A stretch of 64,000 bases of DNA from Selenomonadales bacterium (GTDB lineage Bacteria; Bacillota; Negativicutes; Sporomusales; UBA7701). Shown piece after piece: positions 17,768 to 26,599 of this stretch (the first letter of the stretch is position 1; every line of letters starts with the position of its first letter). Below the pieces are notes generated by a model. It saw only the letters and a list, made by a program, of their open reading frames with translations. It ran no database searches and had not been told where the DNA came from. The stretch spans positions 1 to 64,000 of the forward strand of contig JARKNV010000047.1 of the NCBI GenBank assembly GCA_029976065.1, read 5' to 3'. A program made the translations under genes and the position numbers.

Positions 17768-17966
17768 AAAAGTCACCTCCAGTAAACTATATGGCCCGCT
17801 TTCACCTGGTCAGAACGATCATTTGCTGCTACGCATACGGCTATGTAATGGCTTCTTTCTCGGTTCCTGCGCATATTCCCGTCCTTCGACGGCCAACAGA
17901 TGTGCAAATGATATTTTTCTGGGTTCGACGGGTGCATCAGCTATTCCTCCTCCGAAAAGGCAGGAA

Positions 17967-18272
17967 ATGGAGCATCAATTCGGCGCGATGACGATTGAAC
18001 AAGGAAAAGCCCGCGGCGTAGCCGGGGGTGATACTTTTTTGAAATCAGTTTATATTCAGCGCAAGACCATCAGGGAAAGCAAGATTCATGGCTTGGAAAA
18101 CGAAATTAGAGAGTTAAAGGCTTTATTGACGAAGGGGAATAGATTGATCTACGAAAAGTCGCCCTATCTCCTGCAGCATGCCATAATCCGGTGGACTTGT
18201 TCGCCTGGGGACCGGAAGCCTTCCCAAAAGCCCAGCGGGAGCAACAGCCGGATTCTTGTCCATCGGTTATAG
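17967..18272 (+). pseudogene. chimeric ORF ending in a decayed yyaL 5' copy (copy 1)
   Basis: An open frame starting with ATG after AGGCAGGAA. About 57 residues that I do not recognise (charged, with a short coiled-coil-like NEIRELKALL stretch) run directly into [15 protein letters not shown], the signature of DUF255/thioredoxin-domain proteins. From 18139 to 18272 the DNA matches the 5' part of the DUF255 gene, but a missing base after QHA and other changes shift the frame, so this copy is decayed. The match ends at the same codon (GYS) as the two later copies, followed by TAA and the CCCTGCGGGG hairpin core. It marks the left edge of the acquired region. Confidence 0.6.
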
Positions 18273-18289
18273 CTAACCCTGCGGGGCTA
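18139..18289 (+). repeat. yyaL 5'-end repeat, copy 1 (decayed)
   Basis: Matches codons 12-57 of the DUF255 gene at 24.45 kb, with frameshifts. It is followed by TAACCCTGCGGGGCTAA (18273-18289), nearly identical to the hairpin after copy 3 (TAGCCCTGCGGGGCTAA). Confidence 0.85.
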
Positions 18290-18323
18290 ATACTTTTTAT
18301 GACTCAAGAGGCTTGTGAATTTC

Positions 18324-18352
18324 TTGACGTTCCTGTCAAATAATGATATACT
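18324..18352 (+). promoter_or_regulatory. csoR promoter
   Basis: TTGACG (18324-18329), 17-base spacer, TATACT (18347-18352). GGGTATAGGTAT lies at the expected transcription start and resembles half of the operators upstream of the ATPase gene, so autoregulation is likely. Confidence 0.8.
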
Positions 18353-18400
18353 GCTTCTACTGTTACGGGTATAGGTATCATGCAGAAAGGGCGTGACAAA

Positions 18401-18676
18401 ATGCGCCAATGTATGGATGCGGACAATCTGCATAGAAGAATAAACAAAATAATGGGACAGCTCAAAGCAATTGATAAAATGGTCGATGAGGACGTTCCCT
18501 GTGAAGACGTTTTGATTCAAATAAATGCGGCAAAAGGTGCTTTGCAAAAGGTTGGCCAAGTTGTCTTGGAGGGTCACCTGAATCATTGCGTCAGGGAAGG
18601 GATCGAACACGGCGATGCCGACAAAACGATAGCAGACTTTGCTAAAGCTATTGAGCATTTTTCAAGAATGGCATAG
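18401..18676 (+). CDS. csoR: CsoR-family metal-sensing repressor
   Basis: About 91 residues, all-helical CsoR/RcnR family. The ligand pattern is present: Cys in VPCEDVLIQ, then His and Cys in EGHLNHCVREG, the C-H-C spacing of copper-sensing CsoR. It represses transcription when metal-free and releases DNA when copper binds. ATG 18401 has AAAGGG nine bases before it; ATG 18380 (seven residues longer) is possible. It precedes a P1B-type ATPase gene whose promoter contains two C-rich/G-rich dyads of CsoR type. Composition is more AT-rich than the surrounding chromosome, and it lies between two yyaL 5' repeats, so it is probably acquired. Confidence 0.85.
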   Translation: MRQCMDADNLHRRINKIMGQLKAIDKMVDEDVPCEDVLIQINAAKGALQKVGQVVLEGHLNHCVREGIEHGDADKTIADFAKAIEHFSRMA

Positions 18677-18699
18677 CATTAAAATAAAATAGCAGGTAC

Positions 18700-18729
18700 A
18701 AAAAGGACATGGCCTTGCCAGTCCTTTTT
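18700..18729 (+). terminator. csoR terminator
   Basis: AAAAAGGAC (18700-18708) and GTCCTTTTT (18721-18729) form a 9-bp stem ending in a T run. Confidence 0.8.
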
Positions 18730-18832
18730 GCTTTTTACATACATGATATTCAGCTACTCCATTCCATTATTATTTTAATTACGAAGCTGTAGTTGCCAAT
18801 ATCTACTCGCTAATTTTGCGCTTTGATAGCGA

Positions 18833-18884
18833 TTGACTCCGTATACCCACAGGGGTATAATATACCCATACCCCCATAGGTATA
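18833..18884 (+). promoter_or_regulatory. ATPase promoter with two CsoR-type operators
   Basis: TTGACT (18833-18838), 17-base spacer, TATAAT (18856-18861). Operator 1, TATACCCACAGGGGTATA (18842-18859), overlaps spacer and -10. Operator 2, TACCCCCATAGGTA (18869-18882), lies at the transcription start. Both have the A/T-flanked C-tract/G-tract dyad of CsoR sites. Placement predicts tight repression released by metal. Confidence 0.85.
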
Positions 18885-18898
18885 CGGAGGCGCGACAA

Positions 18899-20761
18899 TT
18901 GATAAAACTATTAAAAGACGACGAAAAAAGAACAGTCTTATTTCTTGCGATATCGTTCATTTCAGTCATAATCAGCTTTTTTCATGTTGGAAATTTACCC
19001 ATTGATGTCGCATGGTTGGCAATTTTACTGTGCGGAATACCAATTGTCAAAGGGGCTGTTATCGGCCTTGTTACCGAATTTGATGTCAAAGCCGATGTGC
19101 TGGTATCCATCGCTTTAATCGCCTCGGTGATTATCGGCGAGATCTTCGCCGCTGGCGAAGTGGCCTTTATTATGGCAATCGGCGCATATCTTGAGCAACG
19201 CACTGTAGCCAAAGCCCGCGCGGGCATTGAAAAACTGGTGCACCTTACCCCGACAACGGCAAGGGTCGTCAGGAGTGGCGAAGAAATCATTGTCCCGGCC
19301 GAGCTGGTCAAGGTCGATGATATCCTGCGTGTGCTCACAGGTGAAACCATTGCCGTGGACGGCGTCATCATAAGCGGCCAAACCTCCGTCAATCAGGCGG
19401 TGATGACCGGAGAATCTCTTCCGGCTGACAAAGGCGTCGGAGATGAAGTTTCCAGTGGAACAGTTAATCAATTCGGCACATTCGATATGAAGGCCACCAA
19501 AGTTGGCGAGAGCAGCTCCCTGCAAAGGATGATCCGGCTAGTCCAGTCGGCCGACGCCGGCAAGGCGAAGATTGTCGGGCTTGCGGACAGATGGGCCACC
19601 TGGATTGTAGTTATCGCCTTGGCATCCGCAGCCGCAACATGGCTTGTCACAGGTGAAATCATACGCGCCGTAACGATATTGGTCGTATTTTGCCCCTGCG
19701 CTTTAGTGCTGGCCACGCCCACGGCAATTATGGCCGGGATCGGCAACGCGACGAAGTTCGGTATTCTGATCCGCGAAGGCGACGCCCTGGAAAGGCTTGC
19801 TAGTGTAAAATGCATTGCCTTTGACAAAACAGGCACGCTCACCTATGGAAAACCCGATGTAACAGCCGTCGAGAGCTTTGATTCCAATATATCCGATGAA
19901 GAACTGCTCTCCCTGGCGGCTTCCGTAGAGCAACGTTCCGAGCATCCGCTGGGAAAAGCCATTGTCGCTAATTACAGAGCTGCTTCAAACGCACCATTAC
20001 CGGAGCCCAATGATTTTCAGATGCTTGCGGGGCGCGGTGTTTCCGCAGTTGTAGACGGCCATACAATACTTGCCGGAAATGCGGAACTGCTGCGCGATTA
20101 TTCTATCCTCTTACCCCAAGCCATCATAGACAAAGCGGATACATACAGAAACGACGGCTGCACCATCATCTTTGTTTCCGTGAACGGCCACATCTCGGGA
20201 TTCATTGCCTTGTCGGACACTGTGCGGCCCGATGCCGTGGCTATGGTCAAACGCATTGAGAAAATTGGGGTAAAAAGCGTGTTGCTTACGGGCGACAACG
20301 GCCACGCCGCATCTCATATGGCAAAGATCGCAGGCATTCATGGCATCCATAACGATTGCCTGCCCGAAAACAAAATGGCTATTATCGAACAGTATCAATG
20401 CGGTGGCGATTTTGTTTGTATGGTGGGTGATGGTGTTAACGACGCACCAGCGCTGAAAAAGGCGCATGTCGGCATTGCAATGGGAGGGATCGGTAGCGAT
20501 ATCGCCGTGGACGCTGCGGACATTGCCCTTGTCGGTGACGATATAAAGAACATTCCTCATTTGCTTGCCTTATCAAAAAGAACGATGCATACCATCAAGC
20601 TCAATATGGCGCTTTCCATGGTACTCAATCTTGTCGCAATTCTTCTGGCCATGGCAGGACTTCTCGGACCTGTTGTGGGCGCGCTGGTACATAATGCCGG
20701 CTCGGTCGCGGTGATTATAAATTCATCCTTATTATTAACATGGAAGGAGCATGAAAGATGA
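18899..20761 (+). CDS. heavy-metal P1B-type ATPase (copper efflux likely)
   Basis: A 620-residue P1B ATPase without an N-terminal HMA domain. Visible elements: membrane motif VFCPCALVLATP, phosphorylation site DKTGT, actuator MTGESLP, SEHPLGKA of the nucleotide-binding domain, VGDGVNDAPAL, and a last membrane pair with HNAGSV and INSS. CPC marks a soft-metal exporter; CsoR control argues for copper, but the final-helix residues are not the classic copper set, so another metal is possible. Start TTG 18899 follows GGAGG; the ATG at 18833 lies in the promoter and cannot be used. It overlaps the next small gene by four bases. Confidence 0.88.
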   Translation: MIKLLKDDEKRTVLFLAISFISVIISFFHVGNLPIDVAWLAILLCGIPIVKGAVIGLVTEFDVKADVLVSIALIASVIIGEIFAAGEVAFIMAIGAYLEQRTVAKARAGIEKLVHLTPTTARVVRSGEEIIVPAELVKVDDILRVLTGETIAVDGVIISGQTSVNQAVMTGESLPADKGVGDEVSSGTVNQFGTFDMKATKVGESSSLQRMIRLVQSADAGKAKIVGLADRWATWIVVIALASAAATWLVTGEIIRAVTILVVFCPCALVLATPTAIMAGIGNATKFGILIREGDALERLASVKCIAFDKTGTLTYGKPDVTAVESFDSNISDEELLSLAASVEQRSEHPLGKAIVANYRAASNAPLPEPNDFQMLAGRGVSAVVDGHTILAGNAELLRDYSILLPQAIIDKADTYRNDGCTIIFVSVNGHISGFIALSDTVRPDAVAMVKRIEKIGVKSVLLTGDNGHAASHMAKIAGIHGIHNDCLPENKMAIIEQYQCGGDFVCMVGDGVNDAPALKKAHVGIAMGGIGSDIAVDAADIALVGDDIKNIPHLLALSKRTMHTIKLNMALSMVLNLVAILLAMAGLLGPVVGALVHNAGSVAVIINSSLLLTWKEHER

Positions 20762-20943
20762 AATCTTTGATTTTTACAATCGCCGGCCTACTTATCGGCA
20801 CCATATTATTTGCAGGTGGCGGATATTATCTGCTGAAAGAAAAGGACGACAAAGACTCCGTTAAAATATACGGAACATTTGTCGGCATCGGTGCGGTAAT
20901 AACAATCGGTATGGTTATAAATATTATAGTCACGGGTTTTTAA
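20758..20943 (+). CDS. small membrane protein coupled to the ATPase
   Basis: A 61-residue protein with two predicted membrane helices: FTIAGLLIGTILFAGGGYYL and a second from about 38 to 58 (TFVGIGAVITIGMVINIIVTG), separated by a charged KEKDDKD turn. The start ATG overlaps the ATPase stop (ATGA), so both are made together. It may be an accessory subunit or a regulator of the transporter. I do not recognise a family. Confidence 0.7.
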   Translation: MKSLIFTIAGLLIGTILFAGGGYYLLKEKDDKDSVKIYGTFVGIGAVITIGMVINIIVTGF

Positions 20944-21136
20944 GAATAGAAAACAAGTCCTCCATTTTGTGCTCTTTTTGAAGGATTCATGATGATTTTT
21001 TATCCCTAAGCGAAAGATTATCAAATTGATTGAGAGGGTGTCCATATGATTGAAGTCATCCTCGACGGACTCCGTTTACTAAAGTGCGTTAAGTATCACC
21101 TCAAACGAAAAGTCATGAATTATGGGGGGAGTCAAT

Positions 21137-21373
21137 ATGGCCACAGGCCAATATTGGATAGTTATATTTGATACTGAGACCGGCGGCGGAATAGCCTTCG
21201 TTCCTAATAGTAATAGCCCGGAGGAGGCTGCAGCTTTGGTTAAGGAGAATATTCGCTACGATTGGAAAGCAGTAGAGGCAAAAGTTATAGGAGTTACTTC
21301 TGAGATTGATGTGAGCAACCTTCATTATCACAAGACCGGTGTATATCATTACGGCGGTGACTCGAACATATAA
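21137..21373 (+). CDS. hypothetical protein, 78 residues
   Basis: Starts at ATG 21137 with GGGGGAG six bases before it. The sequence (QYWIVIFDTETGGGIAFVPN, then SPEEAAALVKENI) looks like a small alpha/beta soluble protein; histidines cluster at the C-terminus (LHYHKTGVYHYGG). I do not recognise it. It lies inside the metal-resistance cargo between yyaL 5' repeats. A 41-codon frame at 21046-21171 overlaps it and is less convincing. Confidence 0.6.
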   Translation: MATGQYWIVIFDTETGGGIAFVPNSNSPEEAAALVKENIRYDWKAVEAKVIGVTSEIDVSNLHYHKTGVYHYGGDSNI

Positions 21374-21464
21374 AACCAGAAAAATGTTTTTGTCACGTAG
21401 GATGGATATGGATAATGAAGTCACCTTGACGGTATCTTATAAATAAAAATTAGGGGGTATCTTA

Positions 21465-21638
21465 ATGGCCGAGTTCATCAACCGCAAGCATAAAGCCAAC
21501 AGGCTCATTTACGAAAAGTCGCCCTATCTCCTGCAGCATGCCTACAACCCGGTGGACTGGTTCGCCTGGGGACCTGAAGCCTTCCAAAAAGCCCAGCGGG
21601 AGCAAAAGCCGGTATTCTTGTCCATCGGCTATTCTTAG
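21465..21638 (+). pseudogene. yyaL 5' fragment, copy 2 (57 codons, intact)
   Basis: Encodes 57 residues, [11 protein letters not shown]...FLSIGYS, then TAG. The protein is identical to copy 3 at 24447-24617, yet 26 of 57 codons differ and all changes are synonymous (28 of 171 bases), so both copies were under protein-level selection until recently. AGGGGG precedes the ATG and TTGACG/TATAAA-like sequence lies upstream, so it has its own expression signals. After 40 non-coding bases, ACC TGC CAT TGG (21676-21687) reads T-C-H-W, the next residues of the intact family, then the match stops. The downstream gene is gone. Confidence 0.8.
21465..21638 (+). repeat. yyaL 5'-end repeat, copy 2
   Basis: Direct repeat of 24447-24620 (84 percent DNA identity, 100 percent protein identity). 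It ends at the same codon and is followed by a hairpin TAGCTGC-GGCA-GCAGCTA (21636-21653), structurally equivalent to TAGCCC-TGCG-GGGCTA after copy 3. Confidence 0.9.
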
Positions 21639-21696
21639 CTGCGGCAGCAGCTAGATATTATTGGTTACTTTATCCACCTGCCATTGGTGGCACGTT

Positions 21697-21710
21697 CGTG
21701 TAGATCATTA
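21697..21710. repeat. inverted copy of the 14-base junction sequence
   Basis: CGTGTAGATCATTA is the exact reverse complement of 24647-24660 (TAATGATCTACACG), which lies immediately before the CxxC codons of the interrupted yyaL. It is next to TGCCA-TTGG-TGGCA (21679-21692). This looks like an element end present in opposite orientation. Confidence 0.7.
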
Positions 21711-21785
21711 ACAATTAATGTACACCGAACACTGAAAGCTAAGAGCTAAATAATGCATCATGGTGTCATGGCGATGAATAAACCA

Positions 21786-21827
21786 ACTACCATCCAAAGT
21801 CATATTACAAGGATTTTGGATGGTAGT
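21786..21827. repeat. inverted repeat, terminator-like
   Basis: ACTACCATCCAAA (21786-21798) pairs with TTTGGATGGTAGT (21815-21827). It precedes the TetR promoter and may terminate transcription entering from the first cargo module, or be an element end. Confidence 0.6.
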
Positions 21828-21841
21828 ATTTGTATAAAATT

Positions 21842-21898
21842 AATGTGACATCATTGTCATATGACAGTGTTGTCACATTAAGCGAACTGTGCTATGCT
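21842..21898 (+). promoter_or_regulatory. TetR-gene promoter with nested dyad operator
   Basis: Outer arms AATGTGACA and TGTCACATT and inner TGTCATATGACA (21855-21866) share one centre (21860.5). The right arm overlaps a -35 TTGTCA (21870-21875), 17 bases before TATGCT (21893-21898). This is a strong autoregulatory operator for the TetR protein just downstream. Confidence 0.8.
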
Positions 21899-21920
21899 GT
21901 CCTCAGAAGGAGATGATGGT

Positions 21921-22517
21921 GTGCCAAAAGATACTTTCCATAACCTAAGTGATGATAAGAAACGGAAAATTTTTGACGCCGCCGTACAGGAATTTTCAAC
22001 CCGGCGTTTCAGCGAGGCATCCATCAACCAGATTGTGAAAGCCGCGGAAATACCCAGAGGAAGCTTTTATCAGTATTTCAGTGGTAAAGAGGACATTTAT
22101 TGTTATATGTTCGAAGAGATTCTAAAAGAAAAACGCGATGTTATTCGCAAGGGGGAAGCCATAGATTCCGATAACGATGTTTTCGAAAACTGTTTGCAAG
22201 CAACCAGAGCTTCCTTTGAATGGGGTCGCTTAAATCCGAAATACAGCCAGATAGGCATGCTGATGGAGATAGACAACAGCGAATTCATTATCAAGCTCCG
22301 TGCCGCGTCGTTCGAAGGTTTGCAAAAAATGATCGAGCGAGATAAAGAACGCGGCCTCATAAAGCAGGAAATCGATTCCGAATTGGTCGCGGAGATGATT
22401 TATGCCCTGATTTGGAAGCAGTATTCCCTGGTCGGATTTAACGGGGACATGTTTTTCAAAAAGATCAGCGATGGCTTTGCTATAATCAAGCAAGGAATTG
22501 CTGCTGTTGAGGGCTGA
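21921..22517 (+). CDS. TetR/AcrR-family regulator
   Basis: About 198 residues. The N-terminal HTH is typical: KRKIFDAAVQEFSTRRF, ASINQIVKAAEIPRGSFYQYF (recognition helix near 45-55), then KEDIYCYMFEEIL. The C-terminal ligand domain is divergent. GTG 21921 is chosen because AAGGAG is eight bases before it and the promoter puts the transcript start near 21905. The adjacent nested dyad should be its operator. It probably controls the two methyltransferase genes that follow in the same direction; inducing ligand unknown. AT-rich, between yyaL repeats. Confidence 0.85.
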   Translation: MPKDTFHNLSDDKKRKIFDAAVQEFSTRRFSEASINQIVKAAEIPRGSFYQYFSGKEDIYCYMFEEILKEKRDVIRKGEAIDSDNDVFENCLQATRASFEWGRLNPKYSQIGMLMEIDNSEFIIKLRAASFEGLQKMIERDKERGLIKQEIDSELVAEMIYALIWKQYSLVGFNGDMFFKKISDGFAIIKQGIAAVEG

Positions 22518-22548
22518 ATGAATACGAATACCTGACAGGAGGTCAGCC

Positions 22549-23556
22549 ATGAACAACCATAATCAAAAGGCGGTTGCGGCACGCGATCCCATCGCGGCTG
22601 CCGTCTTCTATATCATCAGCGTCCTGCTGTTCCCCGTCACGCTGCTTGGCTATGTGATCTGGGTCGGTAAGATTCTCCTCGCCGGGCGCAAGTCGGGCGT
22701 GTCGGTGACAGCGCAAGGGCCGCTTTCCGCGCGCTGGACCGAGCACAATCTGGGCACTAGGGAAGACGAGCCGGCGAATCGGCTGCTGATGGCACTGCCG
22801 GGCATATCCCCTCTGGGCGTGCGTCTGGCAGCCGGGCCGATGCTGCTGGCCCACCGTTTGACCGGCTATGTACCGAAGGCCTTCAGGTACCCTTTTGAGG
22901 GGGACGTCCCTCCGCAGTACGAGGCCTCCGCGCGCATAGCATTCTTCGATGCTGCCGTCAACCGGCACCTCGCCGATATCGATCAGTTCGTCATCCTCGG
23001 CGCTGGCTTCGACACACGCGCGTTCAGACTGCCCAAGGGCACGCGGGTTAAATCCTTCGAGGTCGATATGCCGAAGACGCAGGCGGTCAAGCGCGCGATG
23101 TTGGAGAAGGCCGGGATCGACGCGGCCGGGGTTACGTTTGTAGCCGCCGATTTCGAGAAAGACGACTGGTTGACGCGACTCGTGGACGCCGGGTTCGATT
23201 CTGGCCAACCGGCTTTCTTCCTTTGGGAGGGTGTGATAATGTACCTGGACAGGGATGCGGTCGAAACCACCTTGCGTAAGATCGCGAGTACCGCAAAAGG
23301 CAGCGTCGTCGCTTTCGACTACTTCACGACCGAGCCGCTTGAGTCGCAGTCGCTTTACTGGCGCTACGCGAGAGCGACGACCAAAGCCGCCGGCGAGCCG
23401 CTGACATTCGGCGTCGACAGCATGCCGCCGTCGTGCGAACGTCTTGCCGAGCTGCTCGCATCTTGCGGATTCTCGCTTGTCGAGCAGCGCACCCTCGGGC
23501 AGGAGACGGAAGGCAAGCGTGCCTGGGGCGGCTTTGCGACTGCAATTGTGAAGTGA
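22549..23556 (+). CDS. class I SAM methyltransferase, LCMT/PPM family
   Basis: A 335-residue protein with an N-terminal hydrophobic segment (AVFYIISVLLFPVTLLGYVI, residues about 18-37), then a leucine-carboxyl-methyltransferase-like domain: FVILGAGFDTRAFRL (SAM motif I near 147), EVDMPKTQ (acidic ribose contact) and FLWEGVIMYL. Bacterial members methylate small carboxylates or polyketides; substrate unknown. CAGGAGG gives a good ribosome site. Its GC content is clearly higher than that of the genes on either side, so the cargo is itself a mosaic. Probably co-transcribed with the TetR gene. Confidence 0.8.
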   Translation: MNNHNQKAVAARDPIAAAVFYIISVLLFPVTLLGYVIWVGKILLAGRKSGVSVTAQGPLSARWTEHNLGTREDEPANRLLMALPGISPLGVRLAAGPMLLAHRLTGYVPKAFRYPFEGDVPPQYEASARIAFFDAAVNRHLADIDQFVILGAGFDTRAFRLPKGTRVKSFEVDMPKTQAVKRAMLEKAGIDAAGVTFVAADFEKDDWLTRLVDAGFDSGQPAFFLWEGVIMYLDRDAVETTLRKIASTAKGSVVAFDYFTTEPLESQSLYWRYARATTKAAGEPLTFGVDSMPPSCERLAELLASCGFSLVEQRTLGQETEGKRAWGGFATAIVK

Positions 23557-23596
23557 GTGCTTCCTGCTAGTTGTGGCAGGTATTGGAGGGAGTATT

Positions 23597-24340
23597 TTGA
23601 ACAATGAATTAGAGCACAGGCCGGTGCTGAACGCGAACTCTATTTCTTTTGAATCTTATGAAGCAATGGCGGAATATTATCTTAAGTACGTTGATACGAA
23701 ACCGTTTAACGCATATTATGAAAGACCCGCCACATTATCATTACTTCCCGCCGTTAAAGGAAAGATGGTTTTAGATGCCGGTTGTGCTGCGGGCTGGTAT
23801 AGTAACTGGCTGTTGAAGCAGGGCGCCAATGTAATAGCAGTAGATTTTAGTCCTAATATGATCGAAATGACCAAAAAAAGGATTGGCAACAAAGCAAATA
23901 TTATCAGAGCTGATCTAAATGAGCCACTAAGTTTTATCGAGGATGGATCGGTAGACGTTGTATTATCATCATTAACGCTGCATTATTTGAAGCATTGGGA
24001 AGTACCAATGGCCGAATTCGGGAGAATACTAAAACCGTCCGGTTATTTTATTTTCTCGGTTCACCATCCATTCATGGATTTTACATTTTTTCATAGAGGC
24101 AACTATTTTTTAACCGAAATTCTTAGTGACGAATGGGAAACTGACAAAGGCAAAGTTAAACTGCAATTTTACAGAAGACCACTATATAAAATCGTTTCAT
24201 CGGTACTTGAAGCAGGGTTTATTATTGAAAAGCTATTAGAACCGATGCCAACAGAAAAGTTTAAAGAGTTACAACCCGAAGTATATGAAAAACTAACTAA
24301 AAGACCGCAATTTCTTTTTATAAGAGCAAGGAAAAATTAA
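23597..24340 (+). CDS. class I SAM methyltransferase (UbiE/Methyltransf_11 type)
   Basis: About 247 residues. Motif I is VLDAGCAAGWYSNWLL (near 60-75), followed by VIAVDFSPNMIEM (motif II) and DVVLSSLTLHYLKHW (motif post-II), the normal small-molecule methyltransferase order. TTG 23597 follows GGAGGG by six bases; the GTG at 23573 is weaker. The gene is AT-rich (about 38 percent GC by eye), unlike the preceding methyltransferase, implying a different donor. Substrate unknown; resistance or detoxification is a guess from the TetR context. Confidence 0.82.
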   Translation: MNNELEHRPVLNANSISFESYEAMAEYYLKYVDTKPFNAYYERPATLSLLPAVKGKMVLDAGCAAGWYSNWLLKQGANVIAVDFSPNMIEMTKKRIGNKANIIRADLNEPLSFIEDGSVDVVLSSLTLHYLKHWEVPMAEFGRILKPSGYFIFSVHHPFMDFTFFHRGNYFLTEILSDEWETDKGKVKLQFYRRPLYKIVSSVLEAGFIIEKLLEPMPTEKFKELQPEVYEKLTKRPQFLFIRARKN

Positions 24341-24446
24341 TGCCTAACAGCTTGCCATCGGTTCATGTGCCGTTAGGGATGGTCAGAGGATAGTTTCGTC
24401 AACCCATGAGTATCCTATAAGTAAATTCTTAAAGGAGTGGGAATAA

Positions 24447-24620
24447 ATGGCTGAATTCATCAATCGTAAACACAAGGCGAATAGGCTGATCTACGAGAAA
24501 TCTCCCTATCTCCTGCAACACGCCTATAATCCGGTGGACTGGTTCGCCTGGGGACCGGAAGCCTTTCAAAAGGCCCAGCGGGAGCAGAAGCCGGTGTTTC
24601 TGTCCATCGGCTATAGCTAG
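24447..24620 (+). pseudogene. yyaL 5' part, copy 3, ending in TAG before the CxxC codons
   Basis: ATG after AAAGGAGTGGG; 57 codons encode the N-terminus of the DUF255/thioredoxin-domain family ([18 protein letters not shown], then [10 protein letters not shown]) and stop at TAG (24618-24620). In intact homologs GYS is followed by TCHWCHV. Here those codons resume at 24662 after a 44-base interruption, so the gene is split into this part and the 638-residue frame downstream. Either the gene is inactivated or the gap is bypassed in translation. The same gap position is seen after copy 2. Confidence 0.8.
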
Positions 24621-24661
24621 CCCTGCGGGGCTAAAAATTTGAAAGGTAATGATCTACACGT
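24618..24661 (+). other. 44-base interruption of yyaL: TAG, hairpin and 14-base junction motif
   Basis: Begins with TAG inside the hairpin TAGCCC-TGCG-GGGCTA (24618-24633) and ends with TAATGATCTACACGT (24647-24661). ACT TGC CAT TGG TGC CAT (T-C-H-W-C-H) follows at once. The length is not a multiple of three. It could be a scar of a mobile element or a translational-bypass signal of the phage T4 gene 60 type, where UAG and a hairpin follow the take-off codon. Confidence 0.75.
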
Positions 24662-24682
24662 ACTTGCCATTGGTGCCATGTC

Positions 24683-26599
24683 ATGGAGCGCGAATCCTTC
24701 GAGGACGAGGAAGTCGCCGCCATCCTCAACGCCCACTTCGTCGCTGTCAAAGTCGACCGCGAGGAGCGCCCCGACGTCGACCACATCTACATGTCCGTCT
24801 GCCAGGCCCTCACCGGCTCCGGCGGCTGGCCGCTCACCGTCGTGCTCGCCCCCGACAGGCGGCCCTTCTTCGCCGGGACCTATTTCCCCAAGCGCAGCAA
24901 ATGGGGCCGCCCCGGCCTTGTCGAACTCCTTGAAAACATCGCCAATGCCTGGGCCAAAGACCGGGGGAAACTTGTCGCCCAGGCAGGCGAAATCGCCGGC
25001 ATCCTCAGCGAAACCGCTGCCCCCGCCCCCCAGGAAGCGGCCTTCAGCGATCTCCTCGCCGCCGGCTACCGCCAGCTTGCCGACGCCTTCGACCCCCAAT
25101 ACGGCGGCTTCGACGCCGCGCCCAAGTTCCCCACCCCCCATAATCTTCTCTTCCTCCTGCGCTACTGGCACCTCACCGGCGCCGCCCACGCCCTCGCCAT
25201 GGCCGACAAAACGCTCGCCGCCATGAGCGCCGGCGGCATCCGCGACCATCTCGGCGGCGGGTTCGCCCGCTATTCCACCGACGACCGCTGGCTCGTTCCC
25301 CACTTCGAAAAAATGCTGTACGACAACGCCCTGCTCTGCCACGCCTACCTCGAAGCCTACCAATGCACCGGCAACCCCGCCCACGCCGGCGTCGCCGAGG
25401 AAATCCTCGCCTACGTGAAACGCGACCTCACAAGTGAAGATGGCGCCTTTCTCTCCGCCGAAGACGCCGACTCCGAGGGCGTGGAAGGCAAATTCTACGT
25501 CTGGAGCCGGGATGAAATCCTCGCCCTCCTCGGCGACGACGGCGACCTGTTCGCGGCATGTTACGGCGTCACCGCCGGCGGCAACTTCGAGCACGCCAAC
25601 ATCCTCAACCTCATCGGCCGCGACCTGGACGCCGCCGCCGCCCGCCGCGGCCTGGCCCGCGCCGACCTCGACGCCCGCCTCGCCGCCTGCCGCCAAAAGC
25701 TCTTCACCGTACGCGAACAGCGGGCCCATCCCTTCAAGGACGACAAAATCCTCACCGCCTGGAACGGCCTGATGATCGCCGCCTGCGCCAAAGCCGCCCG
25801 GGTTCTGGGCAAACCCGCCTACGCCGCCGCCGCGGAACGAGCCTGCCGCTTCATCCTGGACAAAATGGTCCGCGCCGACGGCCGTCTCCTCGCACGCTAC
25901 CGCGACGGCGAAGCAGCCATTCCGGCCTACCTCGAAGACTACGCTTTCCTCCTCTGGGGCCTGCTCGAACTGTTCGAAACCGGCCAGGACCCCGACCTCC
26001 TCGCCGCCGCGGACCGGCTGGCCGCCGCGATGCTCCGCCTCTTCGGCGACGACCGTGAAGGAGGCTTCTATTACTACGGCAGCGACGGCGAACAGCTCAT
26101 CACCCGCCCCAAGGAGCTCTACGACGGCGCCCTCCCCTCCGGCAACTCCGCCGCCGCCTTCGGCCTCCTCCGCCTGGCCCGCATCACCGGCAGCGACGCT
26201 TACGCGGCCGCCGCCGAAAAGACCCTCGCCGCCTTCAGCGGCCAGGTTGCCCGTCAGCCTCGCGCCTACACCTTCTATCTCTGTGCCCTCGCCGGCCTCC
26301 TCGCCGCCCCGCGCCACATCGTCCTCGCCGGCCGCCACGACGACCCGGAGCTTGCGGCAATGCGCAGCGAAGCCGGCCGCCGTTTCGCCCCCGAAACAAT
26401 CGTTCTCCTCGCCCCCGACGGCCGCGAGCAACCGGCCGCCGCCATCCCGCTGCTGGCCGGCAAGCCCGCCGTCGCCGGTCGGGCCACCGCCTACATCTGC
26501 GAAAACTTCGCCTGCCGCCGGCCCATAAATAGTCTCGACGAATTCCGGCGCGCCCTCGGTGAAAAGGCGCCACCCCCGCCGCAGCCCACGCCCCGGTGA
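24683..26599 (+). CDS. DUF255/thioredoxin-domain protein (YyaL/SPATA20 family), 5'-interrupted
   Basis: A 638-residue frame from MERESFEDEEVAA covering most of the family: the rest of the thioredoxin-like DUF255 domain (VDREERPDVDHIYM, GSGGWPLTVVLAPD, FFAGTYFP) and the C-terminal alpha/alpha-barrel (GGGFARYSTDDRW, VPHFEKMLYDNA, AEDADSEGVEGKFYVW, NGLMIAACAKA). Upstream codons back to 24653 are open and include TCHWCHV, but no start codon or ribosome site exists for them, so as written the product lacks the CHWC motif. Together with the 57-codon part the protein would be about 702 residues, normal for the family. High GC, resident-chromosome composition. Confidence 0.8.
   Translation: MERESFEDEEVAAILNAHFVAVKVDREERPDVDHIYMSVCQALTGSGGWPLTVVLAPDRRPFFAGTYFPKRSKWGRPGLVELLENIANAWAKDRGKLVAQAGEIAGILSETAAPAPQEAAFSDLLAAGYRQLADAFDPQYGGFDAAPKFPTPHNLLFLLRYWHLTGAAHALAMADKTLAAMSAGGIRDHLGGGFARYSTDDRWLVPHFEKMLYDNALLCHAYLEAYQCTGNPAHAGVAEEILAYVKRDLTSEDGAFLSAEDADSEGVEGKFYVWSRDEILALLGDDGDLFAACYGVTAGGNFEHANILNLIGRDLDAAAARRGLARADLDARLAACRQKLFTVREQRAHPFKDDKILTAWNGLMIAACAKAARVLGKPAYAAAAERACRFILDKMVRADGRLLARYRDGEAAIPAYLEDYAFLLWGLLELFETGQDPDLLAAADRLAAAMLRLFGDDREGGFYYYGSDGEQLITRPKELYDGALPSGNSAAAFGLLRLARITGSDAYAAAAEKTLAAFSGQVARQPRAYTFYLCALAGLLAAPRHIVLAGRHDDPELAAMRSEAGRRFAPETIVLLAPDGREQPAAAIPLLAGKPAVAGRATAYICENFACRRPINSLDEFRRALGEKAPPPPQPTPR

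Follow-up and report, generated by a model that had tools for sequence, protein, structure and literature searches.

Programmed ribosomal bypassing as a probable route across the attachment-site gaps of yyaL, a bacterial gene recurrently entered by islands

Programmed ribosomal bypassing is so far known from very few genes. In the parts of two papers that describe it, gene 60 of bacteriophage T4 combines a stop codon after the take-off codon, a take-off stem-loop, GGA at both ends, a 50-nt gap, a nascent peptide and a 5' stem-loop (PMC11194080; PMC5009743). The relevant section of the second, a 2016 review, notes how few uses of bypassing were known until the yeast mitochondrial cases, and adds that gene 60 had for a long time been presumed to have counterparts with matched landing codons and shorter distances (PMC5009743). 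Here, we analyse a 64,000-nt stretch of a Selenomonadales genome (GenBank assembly GCA_029976065.1, contig JARKNV010000047.1, positions 1 to 64,000 of the forward strand; hereafter the window), in which the 5' end of yyaL, the gene of a Thioredox_DsbH protein (PF03190), is present as three direct copies (A, B and C), the last of them separated from the remainder of the gene by a gap that begins with a stop codon.

From the sequences it appears highly likely that the gap in yyaL genes carrying such islands is crossed by programmed ribosomal bypassing over an arm of the island's attachment site, in the style of T4 gene 60. In this mechanism, large serine recombinases would move islands into yyaL time and again, an island bringing the first 57 codons of yyaL beside its own attachment site so that integration would swap the 5' end of the gene. 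In the gap set, which includes the window, one arm would stay between codon 57 and the resume codon as 15-61 nt with the stop first. The ribosome would come to stand at Ser57 with the stop in its A site, inside a hairpin in most long gaps; the peptidyl-tRNA(Ser) would release, slide across the gap and re-pair, on a full or partial match, with the triplet directly ahead of the resume codon, and translation would resume with Thr to yield a continuous ...IGYS-TCHWCHVM.... Probably, hopping is moreover a lasting trait of a cellular gene in much of a phylum, whereby the island leaves its arm in yyaL and provides the signal by which the gene stays functional, in the form of either a T4-like stop hairpin after TCC ATC GGC TAT or a hairpin-free short hop after TCT ATT GGG TAT, and the hop would outlive the island. 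That the hop occurs, and with what efficiency, is a deduction from sequence alone, although one reached through several largely independent lines.

Set against gene 60 as those passages portray it, yyaL is alike in the stop right after the take-off codon, in a gap of similar length that would be left untranslated between two open reading frames of one protein, and in a landing triplet that is akin to the take-off codon and directly precedes the resume codon. Most of the long gaps further resemble it in a hairpin that holds the stop; in Aneurinibacillus terranovensis (L035), one of 47 long gaps, the gap start is identical to the first 14 nt of the gene 60 gap in the T4 record (TAGCCTTCGGGCTA), the other long gaps having a similar fold in different letters. 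On the other hand, yyaL is a chromosomal bacterial gene with a Ser rather than a Gly take-off, its landing match often extends to two of three positions, its short gaps are without hairpin, its gap consists of an attachment-site arm, and a 5' stem-loop is not supported. On this evidence, the yyaL system would work like gene 60, and its membership hinges on the joined product. Magnusiomyces mitochondria, in the section of the review devoted to them, resemble yyaL in short inserts in conserved genes that are passed by ribosomes with imperfect codon match and two-of-three pairing; there, however, a single organelle genome has 81 such positions, spread over 12 genes (PMC5009743), whereas yyaL is one gene with one site, in many bacteria, and with an invariant stop.

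Searches with the 57-residue peptide encoded by the yyaL 5' end, which used differing E-value limits and whose counts include uninterrupted genes, gave matches in 40 of 100 relatives, in 41 of the 380 genomes representing the class and in 171 of 398 genomes drawn from the phylum, in addition to 68 of 82 and 112 of 299 genomes in the classes to which G382 and G482, respectively, belong, with many places in single genomes (12 matches in G038, 8 in G067). Short open frames were the main reason for taking a region, and not every match with one was taken, so that the resulting counts do not represent prevalence; matches that did not reach query residue 50 or had less than 60 nt downstream were dropped. 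The 332 distinct copies comprise 134 uninterrupted genes, 95 gene-linked copies with a gap, 54 orphan copies (several of them decayed), 29 left junctions and 20 others. A gene-linked gap was recognized by the pattern NNN-TGY-CAY-TGG-TGY-CAY-NTN-ATG (middle N not T) within 190 nt, followed by an open frame of 40 codons or more, and the presence of a stop was not demanded; L188, a further gene-linked gap missed by the strict pattern, was placed among the orphan copies. In addition to A. terranovensis, the named isolates Paenibacillus piri (L034), Scopulibacillus daqui (L059) and Clostridium rhizosphaerae (L103) carry gap genes. Insertions at this codon thus exist in other genomes, a point on which the preliminary description of the window had made its proposal depend.

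A stop immediately follows the Ser of GYS in all 95 gene-linked gaps (TAG 69, TGA 18, TAA 8). The gaps are 15-61 nt long and occupy all three frames without preference (41/25/29); read-through of the first stop alone is open and in frame in 26 of the 95, and 70 contain a stop in the resume frame. Reading would resume at Thr in 92 gaps and at Cys in three, so that the predicted protein equals the uninterrupted one.

The triplet just before the resume codon, taken as the landing triplet, was compared with the take-off codon at positions 2-3 by tRNA class, the classes following anticodon assignments; orphan copies without a stop or with a gap below 13 nt were excluded. The classes match in 83 of 111 distinct combinations (87 gene-linked, 24 orphan), compared with 33.4 by shuffling; none of 20,000 shuffles reaches this number, and the excess holds also within short and within long gaps. 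With a TCG take-off, the landing triplet is nCG in 49 of 51 cases, compared with 1 of 60 for other take-offs; AGC goes with nGY in 9 of 15, TCC or TCT with nCY in 23 of 41 and TCA with nCA in 2 of 4. Among the 87 gene-linked combinations, 64 match in register, 0-5 at one to nine bases upstream and at most 13 downstream. On a tree built from the copies without their take-off codon (119 tips; copies below 150 nt excluded), 40 take-off and 46 landing changes were counted; 33 of the 40 share a branch with a landing change, and 21 go to the matching class, as compared with 2.2 on average and 8 at most with shuffled tips. Copies B and C of the window form a sister pair on this tree and differ in their Ser codons; B combines TCT with TCC and C combines AGC with CGT, both in agreement with the respective class.

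Gaps longer than 25 nt mostly open with a hairpin, and 31 of the 47 distinct gaps of this length have their stop fully paired. TAG faces CTA (24) or CTG (3) and TGA faces TCA (4), which is a compensatory change. In the remaining 16 long gaps the stop is not fully paired, and the hairpin often begins just after TA. Equally, the four codons at take-off -5 to -2 (24603-24614 in the window) are frozen synonymously, as TCT ATT GGG TAT in short and TCC ATC GGC TAT in long gaps; codon entropy at the Gly falls from 1.78 bits in uninterrupted genes to 0.65 in short and 0.16 in long gaps, and further upstream codon choice is for the most part about as free as in genes without interruption, apart from a smaller drop at -6. 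Being independent of gap length, the freeze is tied to the take-off site and not to the recombination site; shared ancestry within each class may contribute to it. The long class furthermore shows some residue shifts compared with uninterrupted genes, at -21, -17, -13, -11 and -8. As a further hop signal, an AGG 15 nt before the resume codon resembling a Shine-Dalgarno sequence was considered and rejected, since it is part of a mirrored arm.

The arm can be delimited in the window, where two islands lie between the three copies. Copies B (21465-21635) and C (24447-24617, with take-off codon AGC at 24615-24617), both on the forward strand and delimited by DNA search and codon comparison, comprise 57 intact codons for an identical peptide and differ in 26 codons, all synonymously; the decayed copy A (18139-18273, forward) is a direct repeat with a broken frame. 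The preliminary description had already recognized the three copies and seen in B and C two versions that diverged under selection at the protein level, with which coordinates, peptides and the synonymous differences agree; the Ser codon of copy A ends at 18273, one base beyond the end given there (18272), its decayed state being borne out. Stop and hairpin follow the Ser directly in all three: TAA and hairpin at 18274-18289 after copy A, TAG with a hairpin at 21636-21653 and a landing-like triplet TCC at 21673-21675 in the gap after copy B (21636-21675), and in the 44-nt gap after copy C (24618-24661) TAG at 24618-24620, a hairpin at 24618-24633 and the landing triplet CGT at 24659-24661. As copy A has them as well, it looks element-borne too, rather than like the native 5' end. 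With 44 nt in between, copy C is not joined seamlessly to TCHWCHVM, with which the remainder of yyaL starts at the resume codon ACT (24662-26599, TCHWCHVMER..., 645 codons open, forward strand, containing the right attachment core); copy C matches PF03190 at profile positions 2-47 and the remainder from position 55, so that the domain is cut just before its CxxC motif.

Downstream of copy B the order is ACC TGCCATTGGTGGCA, then CGTGTAGATCATTA, and upstream of the yyaL remainder it is TAATGATCTACACG, then TAC TTGCCATTGGTGCCA. By sequence comparison, TGCCATTGGTGGCA is the left attachment core of island 2 (21679-21692, forward, centre 21685/21686), followed by the left arm CGTGTAGATCATTA (21697-21710, forward), and the right arm, its mirror, lies on the reverse strand inside the 44-nt gap (24647-24660). 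The two 14-bp arms mirror each other at equal distance from the core centres (14/16 bases), and the island measures 2,986 bp from core centre to core centre. The repeated core, TGC CAT TGG TG, starts at 21679 and 24665 on the CHWC codons, which corrects the earlier placement of the junction at the Ser codon where the repeats end. A recombinase would cut at these CHWC codons, in a site of about ACATGCCATT/GGTGCCATGT with TG as its centre. Large serine recombinases typically use symmetric arms that reach about 25 bp from a dinucleotide centre. Mirrored arms (at least 10/16) occur in 9 of 14 pairs of neighbouring copies with a gap after the right copy and in 0 of 30 other pairs; their restriction to gap pairs indicates that the gap contains the arm.

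The most recurrent coding family beside the copies, apart from yyaL itself, is a large serine recombinase, which in L179 has Resolvase, Recombinase and zinc-ribbon domains. The upstream sequence of 81 gap loci, 1,500 nt or more in each, was searched up to 6 kb with a profile from related loci, and 16 loci have a recombinase frame there; in 14 it ends 9-187 nt before the copy on the same strand, in full size in eight and as a C-terminal remnant in six. Complete elements whose right end is a yyaL 5' end, to which the preliminary description had pointed as a check, are thus represented by relatives with a recombinase directly upstream of such a copy; in agreement with its statement that the window islands have no integrase, this profile found no recombinase-like frame within 6 kb upstream of copies B and C. 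A tyrosine recombinase was discarded as mover, as the recombinases beside the copies carry Resolvase and Recombinase domains. In these domains and in arms that extend symmetrically over about 25 bp from a TG centre, the islands resemble other large serine recombinase elements, from which they differ by a target in the CxxC codons of yyaL, by carrying a piece of the target gene and, in the window, by the apparent loss of the recombinase. With three copies, mirrored arms and a serine recombinase directly upstream of copies in other genomes, there is good support for the earlier proposal of islands that enter yyaL and provide it with another 5' end; this recombinase would be their mover.

A comparison with SXT had accompanied that proposal. 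SXT/R391 elements use a tyrosine integrase, target prfC and join it seamlessly. Both kinds of element enter a gene and replace its 5' end; the target, the serine type of the relatives' recombinases and, in the gap set, the retained stop and gap set yyaL islands apart. The idea that the replacement 5' end simply restores the gene holds for a second set of islands, in which the final copy joins the gene without gap (L126, L201, L187, L127, L128 and others, all with left-junction copies and an uninterrupted gene further on; L201 has a recombinase between), and it fails for the window and the other gap cases.

Several observations weigh against bypassing as outlined here. Twenty-eight of the 111 pairs are without strict match, namely TCY with TTT (10) or nCA (8), AGC with AAC (3), TGA (2) or AGA (1), TCG with TAG (1) or TCT (1), and TCA with TCG (1) or TTT (1), and in the closest homologous pair differing in take-off class one member ends in TGA (L306). 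The tip-shuffle null is lenient, because shuffling also removes phylogenetic signal; the tree was used after clustering of gaps for independence had failed, the short sequences merging into 6 and 2 clusters. A stop hairpin is found in 5 of 46 short gaps, like in shuffles, a test for the coding 5' stem-loop, which stimulates bypassing without defining it, gave no excess over uninterrupted genes, and most residues of the candidate nascent-peptide signal are conserved in uninterrupted genes too. Equally, 65 of the 81 gap loci have no recombinase within 6 kb, and the joined product, the transcript and the recombination are predictions derived from DNA.

Among the alternatives, translation that ends at the stop, with the downstream half made separately by reinitiation and two polypeptides assembling, survives best and is nevertheless improbable. 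Purifying selection on both halves would suit it, as would the 24 of 95 gaps with an ATG, GTG or TTG open into TCHWC, some behind a stretch resembling a Shine-Dalgarno sequence (L046). The other 71 gaps, however, are without such a start codon, for which reason reinitiation was rejected as a general account; a start at the later ATG (VMER) would omit the CHWC motif, and reinitiation would leave the Ser codon and the landing triplet unrelated.

It is very unlikely that the interrupted genes are dead and the copies passive remnants, as the frame broken by stop and gap, the decay of several orphan copies and the result in the window's own genus might suggest, where none of four genomes (G001-G004) matches the 57-residue peptide, no empty-site genome of the genus being among them. 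Ratios of non-synonymous to synonymous substitution (dN/dS), from pairs with dS 0.1-1.2 and for the 3' half also 60% identity without gaps, speak against it. Over the last 48 codons of the 5' half, 280 pairs of gap genes have a median of 0.114, 61 pairs of uninterrupted genes one of 0.129, and 50 pairs of orphan copies one of 0.146 with a maximum of 0.80. The first 100-110 codons of the 3' half give medians of 0.080 for 65 pairs of gap genes and 0.203 for 34 pairs of uninterrupted ones. By these values, both halves of gap genes are under purifying selection, as strongly as uninterrupted genes or more so. Furthermore, a 33-nt gap with one to three differences is common to four congeneric genomes with constrained halves (L342 compared with L341, L339 and L337), a group in which the profile search found no recombinase upstream; 20 of 21 gap-gene genomes of the phylum sample are without a second match at the limit of that search, and the gap form is present in 16 of 21 matching genomes of family f176.

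No more credible is a cause of the take-off/landing likeness at the level of DNA, by a short target duplication at the birth of each gap or by a binding preference of each recombinase. Parts of the gaps are indeed recombinase arms, and recombinase, copy and gap can be inherited together; the 21 matching co-changes, however, and similar gaps with different Ser codons and different triplets (L301 TCC/TCT, L173 TCA/CCA) argue otherwise, and the invariant stop and a pairing partner that changes along with it would be left unexplained. Simple local duplication of the host's own gene start, which tandem direct copies in one genome might bring to mind, is hardly conceivable given the 26 synonymous differences, the mirrored arms at the island ends, the recombinases beside such copies elsewhere and a cargo protein (23573-24340) that is 73% identical to one in the seamless yyaL island of another genome (L126:2938-3681).

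The cargo, forward throughout, is as described before, with Pfam domains in agreement: island 1 carries a CsoR-type metal-sensing repressor (18380-18676; PF02583, E 2.8e-25) and a P-type metal ATPase (18833-20761; E1-E2_ATPase and Hydrolase domains), and island 2 a TetR regulator (21894-22517; PF00440), an LCM-type methyltransferase (22549-23556; PF04072) and a class I methyltransferase (23573-24340; Methyltransf_11, PF08241). Both modules had been called richer in AT than the host, which applies to most of them (GC 0.37-0.57 in 500-base windows) and not to the LCM methyltransferase stretch (0.61-0.62). An open reading frame at 17823-18272 runs into decayed copy A and has no Pfam match. A DNA search of the 3.42-Mb draft genome with copy B located these three copies and no others; three recombinase-domain matches lie elsewhere in the genome (G000:C49, C2 and C35; L209-L211). 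An Rfam search of the window gave a single weak match, below cut-off, on the opposite strand inside the LCM gene.

In other genomes, truncated yyaL starts form arrays (G067:C1:613-629k, L114; G038:C20 and C1, L132, L133 and L205), which suggests successive islands accreting at one site. Two IMG/VR contigs classed as viral (L134, L135) contain yyaL 5' copies with stop and gap together with a large serine recombinase, in reverse orientation next to the left end in L135. A copy on plasmid pHD04 was rejected as a gap case; it reads GYS-TCHWCHV without gap and then departs from the gene.

Searches of the open-access PMC library showed no earlier report; a paper naming yyaL together with a recombinase treats yyaL, in the passage concerned, as cargo. 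The gap genes amount to scores of candidate hop sites (15-61 nt) that have diverged naturally in bacteria; rules for take-off, landing and gap length may be readable from their evolution and open to direct tests. Such genes may be mistaken for broken ones. Equally, the yyaL case suggests that mobile DNA can sit in a conserved gene, at its CxxC codons, without killing the gene.

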